This document shows, one piece after another, positions 9,205 through 21,782 of a stretch of DNA of 64,000 bases. The number at the start of each line of letters is the position of its first letter. Position 1 is the first letter of the stretch. The position numbers and the translations under genes were made by a program. The DNA comes from an uncultured cyanobacterium. GTDB taxonomy: Bacteria > Cyanobacteriota > Cyanobacteriia > PCC-6307 > Cyanobiaceae. The notes beneath the pieces were generated by a model. That model was not told the origin of the DNA. It did not search any database and was given only the letters and a program-made list of their open reading frames with translations. Location of the stretch: positions 1 through 64,000 of the forward strand of contig CAIXBB010000030.1 in the NCBI GenBank assembly GCA_903917565.1, read 5' to 3'.

Positions 9205-10833
9205 CTAGCAATGGATGGCGGCCAGCCTGGCTTTGCGCCAATCGCGGTACCTGTCCAAGGCTGCAGAGAGATCCGCTATCCGAAGGGGCTTGGAGAGAAA
9301 GTCGTTCATCCCGGCCGCTTCACATTCCTGACGGTGGGAGCCGAACGAATAGGCCGTCAAAGCGATGATGTAGGTATCTGTAAAGCCTTCGCCACGCAAT
9401 TGACGGGAGGCTGCAATGCCGTCAAGACCTGGCATGGCCACATCCATAAAGATAAGATCCACGCCTCCATCTTTCACCGATTGAACGGCCGCATGGCCGT
9501 CCCCCACCGAATGCGCTGTCAGATTCAATCGACCCAGCATCAACTCGAGGACGCGTTGGTTGACGCGATTATCATCGGCAACGAGGATCCCGGTTGCAGG
9601 ATCCAAGGCGCCATAGGGATTCGTTTTTGCAATCTCAGGTTGCTCCTGTGCTGCCATTGCGAACGGCAGTTTCACCGTAAAACAACTGCCAGATCCGAAG
9701 CTCGAATCAACAGAGATCTGCCCCCCCATCAACTGGCACAATCGGGAGCAGATGGCGAGACCCAATCCGGCACTTTGCTTGGTCTGGGCTGGGTTGGAAT
9801 GGCCGAAGAACTCCTCAAAGATGAGTGGCAGGACCTCTGTCGAGATGCCAATGCCCGTGTCGGAAACATGGAACAACATCATTCTCTCGCCACCCGAAGC
9901 TGGCACTTCTTCGACATTCAGACGAATCTCCCCCTGGTTGGTGTATTTGCAGGCGTTTCCCAATAGGTTGAACAGAATCTGACGCAGCTTAAGATCATCC
10001 CCCACGAGCCATCGCGTTGTTCCTGGTGCAATGCAAAGGTGCAAGCCGAGGCGCCTGACAGAGGCTTGATGCTGAAACAGATTGATGATGTCATTGAGCA
10101 AGCAATGTAAGTCAAATCCTCTGAGTTTCAGCGCAAGGCGGCCGGTTTCAATCTGCGAGATATCCAGAATGTCATTGATCAGACTCAACAGATATTCACC
10201 ACTCTCATGAATCGTTTCGAGCATCTCCCGTTGCTGCCCCGCGATCGAGCTGCTGAGCAGTAAATCCGTCATCCCGATCACGGCATTCAACGGGGTTCGG
10301 ATCTCATGGCTCATGTTCGCCAGAAACCGGGTTTTGGATTGGCTGGCAGCCAACGCCTCATCACGGGCCTGACGCAACTCAAGGGTTCTCTGGGCAACCT
10401 GCTCCTCCAGCTGGTCACGGGCATCAATCAACTTGTCCTGGACCTGGACAATCGCGCTCTGATCCCTGAAGGTGAAAACCAGAGACGGCGTGATCGGCAG
10501 ATTGACGGTGGCCCAGGAGACCTCAAAGACCCTTCGGGGAGGCTCGCTCGACAGTTCCCAGGTGGTGGTTCCTTCTGAATCTGATCCCCAGAAAGGCAGG
10601 TCAGAGTTGGGTTCGGACAGCTCACAGAGGTGTCGTTTGGGAATGATCTGGCTCAGGCAATGGCCAAGGCACTGCAAGCGGGAAAGACCCACAAAACGAT
10701 CAAAAGACGCATTCGTCCATTCCACGATTCCGTTGAGATCGGTGAAGGCGAGAGCCTCATCAACAGCTCCCAAGGCCGCCTCAAGCCTCCCCAGGGTGGT
10801 GCGAAGCTGAGTGAGAAGGTTCAGATCCGGCAT
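9205..10833 (-). CDS. PAS-containing hybrid histidine kinase
   Basis: Cytoplasmic sensor kinase of 542 aa with no membrane segment. A PAS domain (about 15-130, ALAFTDLNGIVEWTNASFDRF) and a coiled-coil linker lead to a HisKA domain with the phosphoacceptor His176 in MSHEIRTP. A HATPase domain follows (N box LLGNACKYTNQG, G1 DTGIGI, G2 AGLGLAI), and a C-terminal receiver carries Asp464 in FMDVAMPG and the Lys of LSKPLR. It is the second gene of a minus-strand pair with the PAS gene 7 bases upstream. No output domain is present, so phosphate must pass to another protein; the receiver-PP2C protein nearby is a candidate. Confidence 0.92.
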   Translation of the reverse strand: MPDLNLLTQLRTTLGRLEAALGAVDEALAFTDLNGIVEWTNASFDRFVGLSRLQCLGHCLSQIIPKRHLCELSEPNSDLPFWGSDSEGTTTWELSSEPPRRVFEVSWATVNLPITPSLVFTFRDQSAIVQVQDKLIDARDQLEEQVAQRTLELRQARDEALAASQSKTRFLANMSHEIRTPLNAVIGMTDLLLSSSIAGQQREMLETIHESGEYLLSLINDILDISQIETGRLALKLRGFDLHCLLNDIINLFQHQASVRRLGLHLCIAPGTTRWLVGDDLKLRQILFNLLGNACKYTNQGEIRLNVEEVPASGGERMMLFHVSDTGIGISTEVLPLIFEEFFGHSNPAQTKQSAGLGLAICSRLCQLMGGQISVDSSFGSGSCFTVKLPFAMAAQEQPEIAKTNPYGALDPATGILVADDNRVNQRVLELMLGRLNLTAHSVGDGHAAVQSVKDGGVDLIFMDVAMPGLDGIAASRQLRGEGFTDTYIIALTAYSFGSHRQECEAAGMNDFLSKPLRIADLSAALDRYRDWRKARLAAIHC

Positions 10834-10840
10834 TCCAGCC

Positions 10841-11197
10841 TCACGTCAGCGGGCGCAGGGTGGCCGCGAACACCCAGCTCTCCCCACTGCGTTCGGCCAC
10901 AATGAAGTGCTCAGAGTTGATGGCTCGGTTGTCTTTGCAGATGGTCATCAGCTCCAGGGGATGGTTGAGGATCTGTGATTCACCAACGATCTGAAAGCGG
11001 GAGAATCCAAGGTGATGAGCGTCTTGAAAGGCGGCTGGCAGAATCATGGAAAGGGACTGACCCTTGAGATCCTCCAATGTCCACCCGTAGGTCTCCACAA
11101 ACAGATCGTTGATCTCCACAATCATCCCTTCCTGATCTGCAGCCACGAAGGGTAGTGGCTTGGAACGGAGCTCGTCGATCGTGACCATGGTCCCCAT
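10841..11197 (-). CDS. Single PAS domain protein
   Basis: 118 aa, consisting of a PAS-like domain only (MIVEINDLFVETYGWTLEDLKGQSLSMILP). No cofactor can be assigned from sequence alone. It precedes the hybrid kinase by 7 bases, so the two are likely co-transcribed and the protein may be a separate sensory subunit for that kinase. An alternative start lies 3 codons in (MVTIDEL). It is divergent from the STAS gene, with a short palindrome in between. Confidence 0.75.
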   Translation of the reverse strand: MGTMVTIDELRSKPLPFVAADQEGMIVEINDLFVETYGWTLEDLKGQSLSMILPAAFQDAHHLGFSRFQIVGESQILNHPLELMTICKDNRAINSEHFIVAERSGESWVFAATLRPLT

Positions 11198-11230
11198 TGC
11201 TGCAGCCGCCTGTTGTTCACAAATCTTAGC

Positions 11231-11247
11231 GCCATGGGGCCCATGGC
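11231..11247. promoter_or_regulatory. 17-bp perfect inverted repeat in a divergent intergenic region
   Basis: GCCATGGG-G-CCCATGGC, two perfect 8-bp arms around one base, lies in the roughly 100-bp gap between the divergent PAS and STAS genes. The shape and place suit an operator for a dimeric regulator. No second copy was noticed, and no promoter hexamers could be assigned with confidence. Confidence 0.35.
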
Positions 11248-11297
11248 ACTCGTCAGAAGAATGGCGCCTTCCGTTGGCAGGGGCTGAAGCTCTAAAA

Positions 11298-11663
11298 ATG
11301 GTAAGATCATCAAAATTTGAGATTCACTTTGTGGGTGATCTTTGCATCCTCAATCCCAAGGGCTTGCTTGACGCTCAGAGCGGCGCTGATCTGCGTCACT
11401 CTATCGGCACGATTCTGGCTGAAAAACCCAGGGACATCCTGATTGATTGCCAGGGCATTGATTTCATGGACAGCAGCGGCTTCGGGGCCCTGGTCTCCGT
11501 GCTGAAGCGGGTCAGGGAGCAAGGGAAGCAGTTGTTTCTTTGTGGTCTCAACAGCCAGGTGCGGATTGTTCTGGAGCTCACCGGCACGGAACGGGTGTTC
11601 AGCATCTTCCCCGACAGCGAAGCCTGCGTCGCCTTCCTGACGCCAGATCCATCAGACGCCTGA
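11298..11663 (+). CDS. STAS-domain anti-sigma factor antagonist
   Basis: 121 aa, a single STAS domain of the SpoIIAA/RsbV class. The motif IDFMDSSGFGAL holds the Ser that RsbW-type kinases phosphorylate in this family, followed by the LFLCGLNSQVRIVLELTG segment. Unphosphorylated forms bind the kinase/anti-sigma partner; PP2C phosphatases reactivate them. The ATG at 11298 is taken because upstream in-frame codons run into the divergent promoter region and the palindrome. It is convergent with the receiver-PP2C gene 23 bases away, its obvious candidate phosphatase. A second STAS gene lies at 20285. Confidence 0.88.
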   Translation: MVRSSKFEIHFVGDLCILNPKGLLDAQSGADLRHSIGTILAEKPRDILIDCQGIDFMDSSGFGALVSVLKRVREQGKQLFLCGLNSQVRIVLELTGTERVFSIFPDSEACVAFLTPDPSDA

Positions 11664-11686
11664 ATCCCATCAACGGCAGAAGCATT

Positions 11687-12847
11687 TCAAGGAAGCAGGG
11701 CACGGATGACCGAATAATCATCCGTGAATGGTGCATTGGCCGTGAAGTCATGGATCTGTGACAGCAACCGGTCCAAGCCATTGTCGTCGGCAAGCAGACC
11801 TCGGCAATGCTCCACCAGATCCATGAACTCGCTCAGCGACCCCATCACACCTCCGGGCCTGGGCACTTCGTAGAGGCCGTCGCTGTAGACGAGCAGGCAG
11901 CCCCCCTCGCCAACCTCAAGGCTCTCTACGTCATAGGTCGACTCTTCAAACAGACCCACAGCCATGCCCTGGCCCCTGAGCCAGCGGCAGGGAAACGCCC
12001 CTGTACGGCTCTAGAGCAAGGCAGGGGGATGGCCCGCACTGGCATAGCGCAGTGTCCTGCTGGAGCGCTCGTACACTCCGTACCACATCGTCAGGTAGCG
12101 ACCCTGGTGGCGCTCCATCTGAAAACCGGCGTTCAGGGCCTTCAACACCGCTGCCGGATCAAGGAGGTCGACGGGCAACGAACGGGAACGCAACTGGTTG
12201 TGGACTGATATCGAGGGGAAAGCCGCCGCCAGTCCATGGCCTGATGCATCGGTGAGATAAATGACGAAATGATCGTCATCAAACCAGAAGAAATCGAAGG
12301 AATCGCCTCCCAGTTCATGGGAGGGTTCGAAGCGGGAATCCACCTGGACGGCACCGCTGATGGCCTGTGGCAGCAGCGATCGCACGTAACTGGCCGCTTC
12401 CTCGAGCTCCTGATCCAGTCGGGCCTTCTGATGACGCAGCTCTTCGGCCAGAGCCTTCAGCCGTTCGTTGGCCTGGTGCAGACGAATGCCAGAGCGGACG
12501 CGCGCCAGCAGCTCCTCGGGGTCGACCGGCTTGCTGAGGAAATCATCGGCGCCACAATCGAGCCCTTCCACCCGGTCCTCCACCCGTGAACGGGAGGTCA
12601 GCAGGATGAAATAGGCAGCCTTGAGAGCAGGATCCGCTTTGAACGCCCGGCAGACCTCCAGCCCATCCATGCCATCCATCAACCAGTCGCAGAGGATCAC
12701 CGTTGGTGGGCATCGGCGGGCTTCCAGAAGGGCCCGTTCACCGGATTCAACGACCTGAAGCTGATAACCCTGCGACTGGAGACGCACCTGAAGGATGCGG
12801 TCATCATCGACGAGAAGGATCTTCATCGGGGCGGAACAGTCGTCCAT
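11687..12847 (-). pseudogene. Receiver-PP2C (RsbU-like) phosphatase interrupted by one in-frame amber codon
   Basis: Would encode about 386 aa: a receiver domain (about 8-125; LLVDDDRIL, phospho-acceptor Asp in VILCDWLMDGMDG, Lys in LSKPVD), a short coiled coil, then a SpoIIE/PP2C phosphatase (GGDSFDFFWF, DASGHGLAAAF, C-terminal FTDDYSVIRA). A TAG at 12011-12013 falls just after SAGHPPALL, and the same frame continues at once with SRTGAFPCRWLRGQGMAVGLF, which is normal PP2C sequence. The lesion is a single nonsense codon; a Leu (TTG) or Gln (CAG) codon is likely ancestral. Last gene of the H-NOX/kinase operon. Possible explanations are a recent mutation, a sequencing error or readthrough. Confidence 0.85.
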
Positions 12848-12854
12848 GGCGAGA

Positions 12855-15404
12855 TCAGGATGCCGCGGGGTGACGGAGCCGCAGGGCCTCGCTCACCCGT
12901 CCGGCTTCAACCAGCAACTGCTCAACTCCGACGTGGGGCCACGCCTCCGAATCGGTGCGCAGAGCGTCCTCAACCTGACCGCACAACATGGCCAACCGCA
13001 GCGCCCCAAGGCTGGCACTGGGGGAACGCAGGGAATGGGCGGCGGAGATCATCGCGGCGGCATCGTGGTGCTGCTGGGCCAGCACCAGTGCGGACACCAG
13101 GCGCATCGCGTCATCGAGATAGAGGTCGATCAACTCCTGGAGCATGGCCTGGGACTCATCACCAAGAGCGTGTGCCAATTCCTGCCAGGCGGCGTCATCG
13201 ATCGGGTCGGGCCCATCTCCCCCCACTGGAGCAACGGGCTGGGGGCGAGGTTGGTAGTGCTCCAAGGCGTAGGACAGCTGCGCGGGGAGGATCGGCTTAC
13301 TCAGAAAATCGTCCATGCCAGCGCGAAGGCAGGCCTGTCGATCCTCAGGACGACCATGGGCCGTCATGGCGATGATCCAGGGTTGCACAAATGGAGCCGG
13401 TAGCCCGCGGATGGCCCGCGTGGTGCCGTAGCCATCAAGCTCGGGCATCTGAACGTCCATGAACAGAACGTCGTAGGGGTGCTCCTGCACGGCGCCGAGC
13501 GCTTCGGGACCGGAAGCCGCCGTATCGGGCAGATAGCCGAAGCGTTGCAGCATCTGTACAGCAAGCCTTCGGTTCAAAGGGATGTCATCCACCACAAGAA
13601 GGCGCAGGGGCAGCCGGTCGGCGAGGCGATAGGAGCCAGCATCTGCGGCCGGATGAGCCGGTAGACCTGCCGCCCGTGGGAGCCCGGAGTCCATCGACGG
13701 GTGACTCTCCGCTGGGCTCTGCAACTGCTTCAGGAGGGCTCGACGCAGCTGCTCCAATCGAACAGGCTTGCGCAGCACCACTGGCGGTGTGGCGGACAGG
13801 GAAACCAGCTCTGGCAACTTGCCATGGTCCGCCAGAACGATCCATGGACAGGCGAGAAGCCAGGGGTCCTGCAGAAGGGTCGTTGGCGCCTGATCCCCCT
13901 GCCGGCAGAGCATGCGGCCATCAATCACCAAGACGCCAGGGTTGAACTCAGGCCTCTGGGGACGATCGGAGCGCAGGGAGTCCCCGTCAGGATCGGGGGC
14001 GAACACGCGGAGCCCCATCCGACCGACTTGCTGCTGCAGCAGCCGGCGAAGGGTGGGATTGTTAACCAGCAGGAGAACCGCGGCTAGGGGCTGGGAAGGC
14101 ACCAGCGCGGTGGGGATGGGGGGCGGTGCAGGACAGGCAGGGTCAAGCTGAAGCTGCAGCGAGAAAGTGAAGAGGCTGCCCTGGCCCTCCACACTTTCCA
14201 GCCTGATCGTGCCGCCCATCAGTTCACACAGGCGACGGGTGATTGCCAGACCAAGCCCGGTCCCCCCATAACGCCGAGCCATGGAGGGATCAGCCTGCCG
14301 AAATGGCTCGAAGAGGTGGGGAATCAACTCGCTGGAGACGCCGATGCCGGTGTCCTGAACCTGGAACCTGAAGCGGCAGGATGGGGGCAGGCCAGGGTCG
14401 ACGTTGATGGGCTCCGCCGACACCGCGACAAGGATCTCACCCTGGGAGGTGAACTTGACGGCGTTGCTAAGAAGGTTCCAGAGGATCTGACGTAGGCGGG
14501 TGAGATCGCCAATCACGGCCGAGGGGGTGCCTGGCTCGATGTCCAGGATCAATTCCACCTCCTGACCCAGAAGGCGGGAAGCGCTCAGAAAAAGGGCATC
14601 CTCAATACAGATACGGAGGTCAAAACACTGCTCATCCAGTTGCATGGCACCGGATTCAATCTTAGAGAAGTCAAGAATGTCATTGATGATCGTCAACAGG
14701 GAGTCGGTACTGCTGTTGATGATCTCGACATACTCCCGATCCACCGGGTCGAGATGGGAGTCCTGGAGCAGCCCTGCCATGCCGAGGATGGCATTCATGG
14801 GCGTTCGGATCTCATGGCTCATTGTGGCCAGGAATGTATCCTTGGCGATATTGGCGTCTTCGGCGGCCTGCCTTGCCGCCTCAAGCTCAGCGTTGAGCGT
14901 GGAGAGGCGCTCGGTGGACGCGCGCAGTTCTTCCTGCTGCGTCTTCAGAATACCATTGAGCTTCTGACTTTTCGCAAGTGCGACATTGCGCGATTGCAAT
15001 AGAAATAGAAAGTCAACAAGGGAATCATGCAAAGGAAAATCATCGATCTTCAATCCAAGTAAGCTCAGGTCTGCGAGATGCAGCAAACAGGGAGTGCCAA
15101 CAAAAAGCAGCCGCTTAGCTTCATCAAAGCGACAGATCTGTCCCTCCAACTGCAAGGGAATGGAATGCGCCTTCAGGATCACACGCTGTTCAACGGAATC
15201 CCAAAGACCATGATAGTCAAAGGGGACATCAGGGCGCAGCAGTTCAAACTGATCGCAGAGCGACTGTCCGACCAGATCCGGACCGGGAAGAATGCGGCGG
15301 AGCACAGAGCCGGCAGACTGAATCCTCAGCTGCCCATCGAGAACGAGATGGAAAGGAAAGAGAGGATCGAGAAGTTGGCCAGGCAGCTGGGGGAAGAAAT
15401 CCAT
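12855..15404 (-). CDS. H-NOX-associated (HNOBA) hybrid histidine kinase with two receivers and HPt
   Basis: About 849 aa from the ATG at 15404, 16 bases after the H-NOX stop. Residues about 10-150 match the HNOBA domain of soluble guanylate cyclase and H-NOX kinases ([48 protein letters not shown]). Then come a coiled coil, HisKA with His197 ([12 protein letters not shown]), HATPase ([29 protein letters not shown]), a degenerate receiver (about 440-560; LLLVNNP replaces the acidic pair), an intact receiver (Asp650 in [14 protein letters not shown]) and a C-terminal HPt domain with His790 ([14 protein letters not shown]). A complete phosphorelay to HPt is thus encoded. The receiver-PP2C gene starts 7 bases downstream and is the likely target. 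Confidence 0.92.
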
Positions 15405-15420
15405 GATCAACAGCAAGTCC

Positions 15421-16020
15421 TCATTCGCGAGCGTCACGTGAATCGGGATGGGCAGCGGAGACGTCGGCCGGCGGAGAGAGGCAAACATGGAGGAGCTCCC
15501 TCGCATCGCCCCGCTCCCGAGAGGCGATCTGGTCAACCGTCAAAGGGGTATGAAATGGTTGACCCAGGCCGTGAAAAAGGACCGTCACCATCGGAGCCAG
15601 ACCTTTTCGCTTGGAGCGATACTCCAACGTAATTGATCGATCAGCCCTGTGCTCACAGCGGAAGAAGGGCGGTTGCAGCTCCGGAAAAGCGACCGCAGCC
15701 CGGGCGTCGAGATTGTCGAGCTGATCCAGAAGATCCGGCAACGTTTCGCCCGTGCTCTCAAGCAGCTGTTCGTAGCCTTCCAATGCCGTGTAGGTGATCC
15801 AGTACTCACCAAAGGCCTGCATGATCTGATCAGCCGACAGGCCAAGTTCCACTGTGGCTGCGGCCACAAGGCGATGGCCCACGTCGTCGGTATAAGCCTG
15901 GTACGTCAAGAAGAAATCTAGATCCTTCAGTTCGGCCCTGTCCTTGACCCGTTGCCAGACATCCTCACCATGCTGTGTGCAGACCATCTGTTGGATGGCC
16001 CGGTTGACAAGCCCGTACAT
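15421..16020 (-). CDS. H-NOX domain protein lacking the proximal heme histidine
   Basis: 199 aa; residues 1-180 form an H-NOX (heme nitric oxide/oxygen binding) domain, starting [13 protein letters not shown]. By eye it aligns without gaps to soluble guanylate cyclase beta1 for the first 120 residues. The YxSxR heme-propionate motif is kept (Tyr134, Ser136, Arg138 in EYRSKR) and so is Pro113. However, the proximal heme ligand position (His105 in sGC beta1) is Asp105, codon GAC at 15706-15708. Canonical heme ligation is therefore not expected. The gene lies directly before the HNOBA hybrid kinase, the usual operon partner. The last ~20 residues are polar and probably disordered. Confidence 0.93.
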
Positions 16021-19812: not shown

Positions 19813-20288
19813 TTCTGGTCAGCGTCGGAACGGAGCAGTTCCCCTTCAATCGGTTGATGCAGTGGCTGGAGCTGCTGATCCAACGGGCGCTCATTGATGA
19901 AGATATCGTCGTTCAGTACGGCACCTGTACCTTTCTCCCCAGTGGCACCACCGTGTATCGGCTGTTGAAGGAAGATTCCTTTCGGGCACTGGTTCAGAAG
20001 GCACGGGTCGTGATCGCCCATTGCGGGGAGGGTACGGTCCTGTTGCTCGATGAATTGCAACAGCCCTTCATTCTTGTCCCACGCAGCGTCCGCTATCAGG
20101 AGCATGTTGACGATCACCAGGTGGAACTCGCCCTGGCGCTGACGGAGATGGGTGTTCCGATTGCCTGGAGTCCGGGCGATCTGGTTCGCTTTCTTGAAGC
20201 CCCCTTCAAGACCTCAATCAGTGATGTGACCGAAAGCTCCGCCCAGTCCTTGTGCCGCAGTCTTCAGAGCCATTTTTCTCCGGCATGA
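19809..20288 (+). CDS. pssE: PssE/Alg13-like glycosyltransferase subunit
   Basis: 159 aa, the catalytic C-terminal half of the GT28-type pair (Alg13/PssE). The N-terminal ILVSVGTEQFPFNRL, the nucleotide-sugar motif VIAHCGEGTVLLLDE and the RYQEHVDDHQVELA segment are typical. It pairs with the Alg14-like protein upstream. The stop overlaps the start of the STAS gene (ATGA), so capsule enzyme and regulator are translationally linked. Confidence 0.88.
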   Translation: MILVSVGTEQFPFNRLMQWLELLIQRALIDEDIVVQYGTCTFLPSGTTVYRLLKEDSFRALVQKARVVIAHCGEGTVLLLDELQQPFILVPRSVRYQEHVDDHQVELALALTEMGVPIAWSPGDLVRFLEAPFKTSISDVTESSAQSLCRSLQSHFSPA

Positions 20289-20875
20289 TGGGTCGCCAGT
20301 CCCCCCACTCCGCTGTCGTCAGGACAGCCCGGAACGGCATCCTGATCCTCCAGCTGCCGCCACGGCTGACCGTCAACGAAGCCGTGGCGTTCCGTGCCGG
20401 ATTCGCCGGCTGGCTGGATGAAGTGCAAGGCCTGCGGGAAGTGATCCTGGATTTCGGGCGGACGGCCGTCATCGACAGCAGCGGCATCGGCGCCCTGGTC
20501 GGCGCCATCAAAACCGCCCAGGAGCGCCCTGTTCCCCTCTGCGCCTGGAGCCTGCACCGGCAGGTGTTCCTGGCCCTGCAGATGACCGGGCTGGAGAAGG
20601 TGTTACCGGTGGCAGACCACTCGGAGGGGCTGCTCCCCCAGTTGTCAGGCGCGGAGGATCAACGCCCCCCCCTGACACCCCCTCGGTGCGCTCCGGAGTC
20701 AAGCGGTTCATGGACATCTGTGGTGCGTTGGTCGGACTCGGCGTCACGGCGCTGCTGTTTCTCCCCATGGCGCTGGCCATTCGCCTGGACAGCCCGGGGC
20801 CGATTCTGTTCAGCCAGGTTCGCTGTGGCTGGATGGGCCGGCATTTCCGTATCTGGAAGTTCCGCTCGATGGTGA
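20285..20875 (+). CDS. STAS-domain protein (anti-sigma factor antagonist), 3' end ambiguous
   Basis: The STAS fold occupies about residues 10-125, with the phosphorylatable Ser motif VIDSSGIGALVGAI and ALQMTGLEKVLPV. It starts at an ATG overlapping the pssE stop. As sequenced, the frame passes the domain end and runs on to 20875, overlapping the sugar transferase by about 190 bases with a low-quality Arg/Trp/Ser-rich tail. A C8 run at 20665-20672 explains this: with seven C the frame would stop at the following TGA, directly after ...EDQRPP; with nine C it would fuse in frame to the sugar transferase. It most likely partners the RsbW-like kinase two genes downstream. Confidence 0.8.
   Translation: MMGRQSPHSAVVRTARNGILILQLPPRLTVNEAVAFRAGFAGWLDEVQGLREVILDFGRTAVIDSSGIGALVGAIKTAQERPVPLCAWSLHRQVFLALQMTGLEKVLPVADHSEGLLPQLSGAEDQRPPLTPPRCAPESSGSWTSVVRWSDSASRRCCFSPWRWPFAWTARGRFCSARFAVAGWAGISVSGSSARW
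20665..20672 (+). repeat. C8 homopolymer at the STAS/sugar-transferase boundary
   Basis: Eight consecutive C bases, followed by TGAC, lie at the end of the STAS domain and 13 bases before the GTG of the sugar transferase. Loss of one C brings TGA into the STAS frame. Gain of one C joins the STAS frame to the sugar-transferase frame with no stop between. It could be a slippage site or a base-calling error. Confidence 0.6.
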
Positions 20876-21285
20876 GCAATGCCGAGAAACTGAAAGGCAA
20901 TGTGGTGAACCAGGCCCAGGGCGCCTTCTTCAAGAATGACAATGACCCCAGGATCACCAGGGTGGGCAGAATCCTGCGCAAGACCAGCCTCGATGAGCTG
21001 CCCCAGTTCTGGAATGTGCTGATCGGCGACATGAGTCTGATCGGAACACGACCTGCCACCCCAGATGAAGTGCGTCGCTACGCCATTCCCAGTTGGCAGC
21101 GCTTCGATGTGCGTCCTGGGTTGAGTGGCGAATGGCAGGTAAGTGGCCGCTCTTCGATCCGAGATTTTGAAGATGTGATCAGGCTTGACCTCAGATATCA
21201 ACAGAACTGGAGTCTTGGCTACGATCTTCAGCTGATTGCCAAGACATTCCTTGTCCTCTTCAGCAAGGATTCGGGGGCTGCATGA
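20686..21285 (+). CDS. Sugar transferase (polyprenyl-phosphate phosphoglycosyltransferase, small form)
   Basis: 199 aa, bacterial sugar transferase (PF02397) family, the initiating enzyme that loads the first sugar-phosphate on undecaprenyl phosphate. One hydrophobic N-terminal hairpin (ALVGLGVTALLFLPMALAI) is followed by the family motifs DSPGPILFSQVR, FRIWKFRSM, KTSLDELPQFWNVLIGDMSLIGTRP and RPGLSGEWQVSGR. Length matches the PglC-like monotopic form without extra helices. The GTG at 20686 is the first good start; a GGAGG lies about 30 bases upstream. It is enclosed by a STAS gene and an RsbW-like gene, overlapping the latter by 4 bases. Confidence 0.88.
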   Translation: MRSGVKRFMDICGALVGLGVTALLFLPMALAIRLDSPGPILFSQVRCGWMGRHFRIWKFRSMVSNAEKLKGNVVNQAQGAFFKNDNDPRITRVGRILRKTSLDELPQFWNVLIGDMSLIGTRPATPDEVRRYAIPSWQRFDVRPGLSGEWQVSGRSSIRDFEDVIRLDLRYQQNWSLGYDLQLIAKTFLVLFSKDSGAA

Positions 21286-21782
21286 CTCCGCTCTTGGCAG
21301 GAGATTCAGGTTTGCCCAACAGGCAACTGGCCGTGGACAGTGATCTCGATCAACTCGAGGCTGTCGTCAGCTGGTTTGACCGGCTCAGCGACCCTGGGGT
21401 GCCAACGGATCTATGGATGCAAGCCCAACTGGCTCTTGTGGAAGGCTTCACCAATGCCGTCCGCCATGCCCAAGCCCATCTGATGGCGCCGCCCCAGGTG
21501 CTGCTTTCGTTGCAGGTGACCAGAAGCTTGTTCTGCATTCAGATCATCGACCATGGTGAACCCTTCGACTTCGCGGAGGCCCTGGCCAGGGTGGAAGCAG
21601 ACAGCGCCGCCAGTGGTGAAGATCCTCTCGCCCGAGAGGCCCATTGGGGGCTGGTGATGTTTCTGAAACTTCAGAAAGACTATGGATGGAGCATCAGCTA
21701 TTGCAGGCGCGATGATGGAACCAACTGCCTGTTTTTTAGCCATCCTCTCACGGCCGACGGAGTCGCTGGTAGGTCATGCTGA
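21282..21782 (+). CDS. RsbW-like anti-sigma factor serine kinase
   Basis: 166 aa with a GHKL ATP-binding fold of the SpoIIAB/RsbW class (HATPase_c_2). The N box is ALVEGFTNAVRHA, the G1-like box IIDHGEPFDF, and the C-terminal part (WGLVMFLKLQKDYGW) corresponds to the G2/lid region with the Gly kept. Family members phosphorylate STAS antagonists and bind a sigma factor or another target. It starts with ATGA on the sugar transferase stop and is the last gene of the operon. No sigma factor lies in the window, so the target could be a distant sigma factor or a protein of the polysaccharide pathway itself. Confidence 0.85.
   Translation: MTPLLAGDSGLPNRQLAVDSDLDQLEAVVSWFDRLSDPGVPTDLWMQAQLALVEGFTNAVRHAQAHLMAPPQVLLSLQVTRSLFCIQIIDHGEPFDFAEALARVEADSAASGEDPLAREAHWGLVMFLKLQKDYGWSISYCRRDDGTNCLFFSHPLTADGVAGRSC

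Follow-up and report, generated by a model that had tools for sequence, protein, structure and literature searches.

The gene at positions 15421 to 16020 on the minus strand of the analysed window (the whole stretch of 64,000 nucleotides, from an uncultured cyanobacterium) encodes an H-NOX protein without the proximal heme histidine, and raises the question whether such a protein still senses a gas, senses something else or no longer senses at all. The source genome (3.02 Mb, 99.94% complete, 46 contigs), whose named relatives are Cyanobium/Synechococcus-type picocyanobacteria, carries this H-NOX gene only. Its frame starts with ATG and stays open through 199 amino acids to the stop codon, so that it is not a pseudogene by interruption. 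The Pfam profile HNOB (PF07700) matched the translation nearly end to end (profile positions 1-162 of 163; 147.7 bits, E 3.6e-43, cut-off 25.5), and residues 1-178 were aligned by phmmer without gaps (207.7 bits) to Alr2278, the H-NOX protein of Nostoc (PDB 4iae/2o09). An AlphaFold2 model of moderate confidence (pLDDT 71) showed the H-NOX fold, with 2o09 as the top PDB match (TM 0.83/0.90). The heme-propionate motif YxSxR (Y134, S136, R138; 15607 to 15621, minus strand) as well as Trp74, Asp45, Pro113, Pro118, M144 and G71 are retained in the alignment. The product is thus a full-length H-NOX protein; its H-NOX identity and the retention of YxSxR and Pro113 had been stated in the original prediction. 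A viral relative was looked for and none was found.

The proximal position is occupied by Asp105, whose codon GAC lies at 15706 to 15708 on the minus strand (the plus strand reads GTC). This assignment, made by eye in the original prediction, was borne out by the codon reading and by the phmmer alignment, in which the Alr2278 stretch LDNLHARVGLSFP faces the region and His105 stands opposite Asp105. Because the alignment is ungapped, recruitment of another histidine as proximal ligand by realignment is ruled out, and no other histidine is left that a structure-based alignment could place facing the heme. The proximal histidine of heme-based NO/O2-sensing H-NOX proteins is therefore absent here, as read in one genome of the species. 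The natural substitutions at site 105, which the original prediction had proposed to count, were scored in 145 distinct H-NOX sequences covering the site, nearly all cyanobacterial and drawn from the genus and the family, from a sample of the phylum and from an additional cyanobacterial family; 11 distant plasmid matches from outside the cyanobacteria were left out of the residue counts. Judged from these sequences, Asp105 is very unusual within the surveyed, nearly all cyanobacterial group, since His was present in 143 of the 145, Tyr in one (Cyanobium sp. N.Huapi 1H5) and Asp solely in the window.

The loss of the histidine is one of several changes. Among 69 columns conserved in at least 90% of sequences, the window protein deviates at eight (I25V, T48G, F97L, H105D, S119F, G147V, D175E and F177L), compared with 0-2 deviations over the same columns in close clade members with an intact H-NOX. 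Val147 (codon at 15580 to 15582, minus strand) occupies the second "glycine hinge" position, corresponding to G144 in S. oneidensis and G154 in V. cholerae, and is the only residue other than Gly among 142 sequences; of the two hinge glycines, G71 alone is kept. When H-NOX proteins signal, the Fe-His bond breaks and the subdomains rotate about the glycine hinge, by which the interaction with the partner kinase is altered. The hinge glycines are reported to be conserved across all H-NOX groups, including the one without the histidine (PMC8738867), and G147V therefore sets the window protein apart from the functional His-less type. With both the proximal His and the second hinge Gly missing, the protein could hardly switch.

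The rate of evolution of the gene was assessed by maximum likelihood with branch codon models (own script, 13 sequences). For residues 1-178, omega was 0.053 in the background, 0.50 on the window branch and 0.37 on the branch of a frameshifted sister gene; the corresponding full-length values were 0.086, 0.46 and 0.43. Equality of the window omega with the background was rejected (residues 1-178; 2dlnL 24.2, 1 df) whereas omega = 1 was not (2dlnL 1.1). The window gene is thus under relaxed constraint, with a branch dN/dS of 0.46-0.50 against 0.05-0.09 that is not distinguishable from 1, although a high omega by itself does not separate relaxation from adaptive change. It evolves like the demonstrably broken sister gene. 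As the estimates lie at 0.46-0.50 and not at 1, some constraint may remain or may have been lost recently. A genome-wide relaxation of selection is ruled out because other genes of the operon evolve normally in the same genome pair: pairwise dN/dS between the window and the sister genome (G020) was 0.13 for the REC-PP2C gene, 0.12 for the STAS gene, 0.15 for the PAS gene and 0.17 for the second kinase gene.

The adjoining gene (12855 to 15404, minus strand) encodes a hybrid histidine kinase of 849 amino acids in which Pfam recognised the HNOBA (about 14901-15389), HisKA, HATPase_c, REC and Hpt domains. The H, N, G1, G2 and receiver motifs are present, and its catalytic motifs are intact. The dN/dS of this kinase is intermediate (0.29 pairwise between the window and G020, 0.34 on the window branch), so that purifying selection persists, weaker than elsewhere. 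The pairing of H-NOX with an intact HNOBA kinase, on which the original prediction relied in considering the protein as probably still used, is therefore real; the conclusion drawn from it is not supported. In the sister genome (G020, L092) the kinase is intact and 88% identical, while the H-NOX gene, about 72% identical, is frameshifted near codon 66. In two further genomes the kinase frame is open and the H-NOX is degraded with its N-terminal part missing (G003, L093) or cut after approximately residue 78 (G088, L095), and on both of these branches the kinase omega (0.14-0.15) is similar to the background. In a fourth genome (G007, L160), where a REC-PP2C gene lies beside the HNOBA kinase gene, an H-NOX was searched for and not found. 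The distribution of H-NOX is patchy, with the gene present in 12 of 42 genus genomes and broken in two of the 12. In this group, the HNOBA kinase outlives the H-NOX protein, and adjacency to an intact kinase is consequently no proof that the sensor is used. Since the broken gene of G020 still encodes His105, the H105D substitution took place on the branch of the window itself.

The genes downstream of the kinase were identified by Pfam and by comparison with relatives. In most relatives the gene order is H-NOX, HNOBA-HisKA-HATPase-REC-Hpt kinase, REC-SpoIIE phosphatase, STAS protein, PAS protein and second hybrid kinase. In the window, the REC-SpoIIE/PP2C response regulator phosphatase gene (11687 to 12847, minus strand) is interrupted by a premature in-frame TAG at 12011 to 12013 (minus strand), a position at which Trp is encoded in each of the 12 relatives read. 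The gene also lacks four residues near the start of its receiver domain. The stop, seen in one assembly, is either recent or an error, because the REC-PP2C gene otherwise has a low omega. Next come the conserved neighbours: a STAS-domain protein (11160 to 11663, plus strand; true start probably near 11304), the PAS protein (10841 to 11197, minus strand) and a second hybrid histidine kinase, HisKA-HATPase-REC (9205 to 10833, minus strand). In the conserved operon at 9205-16020, H-NOX and a phosphorelay kinase are found together with a REC-PP2C phosphatase and a STAS protein, suggesting that NO sensing in picocyanobacteria leads to an output by partner switching. At 20252-21782, inside a polysaccharide gene cluster, Pfam detected another STAS protein together with a sugar transferase and an RsbW-like HATPase_c_2 protein, a set on which the same partner switching might act.

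These observations are best explained if the window H-NOX is a cyanobacterial gas sensor that has begun to decay and is now either inert or locked in one state, which we consider probable. The ancestor shared with G020 would have carried an ordinary His105 and served as input to the HNOBA hybrid kinase, which would pass phosphate to the REC-PP2C phosphatase, itself probably acting on the STAS protein. Purifying selection on the sensor would then have relaxed in this lineage, and the window copy would afterwards have gained H105D and G147V. The resulting protein would probably lack a His-ligated heme, so that Fe-His rupture and hinge rotation would no longer be possible and the kinase would run without gas input. 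As the effector phosphatase is cut short, signalling is probably interrupted at the output end as well. The full-length frame, the retained W74, P118 and YxSxR and the continued constraint on the kinase are points against decay.

The same intact frame and the intact, constrained kinase beside it would be accounted for if the H-NOX still regulated its kinase without heme or independently of the histidine. H-NOX and sGC are activated when the Fe-His bond breaks, and permanent loss of this bond could mimic the NO-bound state and yield a constitutive regulator; a large group of bacterial H-NOX proteins without the histidine, mostly with Pro at the site, has been reported (PMC8738867), and a structure of an H103G H-NOX exists (PDB 2kil). 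We nevertheless regard this explanation as unlikely: omega is not distinguishable from neutral, a hinge glycine kept in every H-NOX group, the His-less one included, has been lost, the sister gene is broken and the effector gene is truncated. There is likewise only a slim chance that the Asp105/Val147 protein still works as a heme-free or Asp-ligated regulator held in one fixed conformation, representing a natural step from a gas-responsive to a constitutive partner before being discarded.

A base error, by which CAC in a normal H-NOX gene was read as GAC, is favoured by the fact that a single base in a single genome is concerned. It is nevertheless quite improbable, as the genome is 99.94% complete in 46 contigs, the gene carries many other derived changes and the dN/dS result is independent of this base.

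Least probable, with hardly a chance in our judgement, is altered sensing, in which the carboxylate of Asp105 (or a water) ligates heme or another tetrapyrrole and confers a new gas or redox specificity: the pocket residues W74, P118, YxSxR and M144 are retained and a relative with another potential ligand, Tyr105, has kept its constraint, but Asp is rare as a heme ligand, conserved sites other than the ligand changed concurrently (T48G, F97L, S119F, G147V), evolution is relaxed, no second lineage has Asp, and the residue aligned with C149 of the V. cholerae Zn/Cys site (C139 in S. oneidensis) is, as read from the alignment, not Cys, which leaves the heme-free redox mode of the V. cholerae type without its zinc/Cys site and without support. 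The original prediction had suggested such a change, to another heme ligation, no heme or redox state, in a protein probably still in use; given an omega not distinguishable from neutral, the lost hinge glycine and the premature stop in the downstream effector gene, the sensing function has far more probably been lost than changed. This corrects the appealing idea that one heme ligand has been exchanged for another, as an intact neighbouring kinase does not imply a used sensor.

The H-NOX of Cyanobium sp. N.Huapi 1H5 (G010; L037:5001-5555), which shares clade and operon with the window protein and has likewise had its proximal His replaced, is a better candidate than the latter for unusual heme ligation. 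In contrast to the window protein, it carries Tyr105 and is otherwise conserved (2 deviations in the 69 conserved columns, Tyr counted as one), and it is under purifying selection, with a lineage omega of 0.125 for residues 1-178 and neutrality rejected (2dlnL 20). By its sequence it is a candidate natural Tyr-ligated H-NOX, and it offers a natural change of heme ligation that is open to testing. The clade as a whole offers a short natural series in which the sensor is lost and the kinase retained (one Asp, one frameshift, two degraded or deleted, one without H-NOX and one constrained Tyr), in which it can be asked what an HNOBA kinase does without its gas sensor.

H-NOX proteins without the proximal histidine are already known elsewhere, and four systems were compared with the window protein. 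Alr2278 of Nostoc sp. PCC 7120 (PDB 2o09/4iae) aligns with it over 178 ungapped residues at approximately 49% identity and shares the fold, YxSxR, W74 and P118, whereas it has His105 and Gly147 in place of Asp105 and Val147. The "group 5" bacterial H-NOX proteins of the Paracoccus type are also naturally without the proximal His (PMC8738867). However, they form a large conserved group with mostly Pro at the site and the hinge glycines kept, whereas in the window protein the change arose singly and recently within a clade that bears His, and one hinge glycine is gone as well. The H-NOX domain of the sGC alpha subunit has the fold and binds no heme (PMC6839917), but it is an old paralogue retained in a heterodimer, whereas the window H-NOX is a stand-alone protein under relaxed constraint. 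Finally, the proximal His has been removed in the S. oneidensis H103G protein (PDB 2kil) as in the window protein; the former is a laboratory mutant with an intact hinge glycine, whereas the latter is natural and its hinge glycine is lost.
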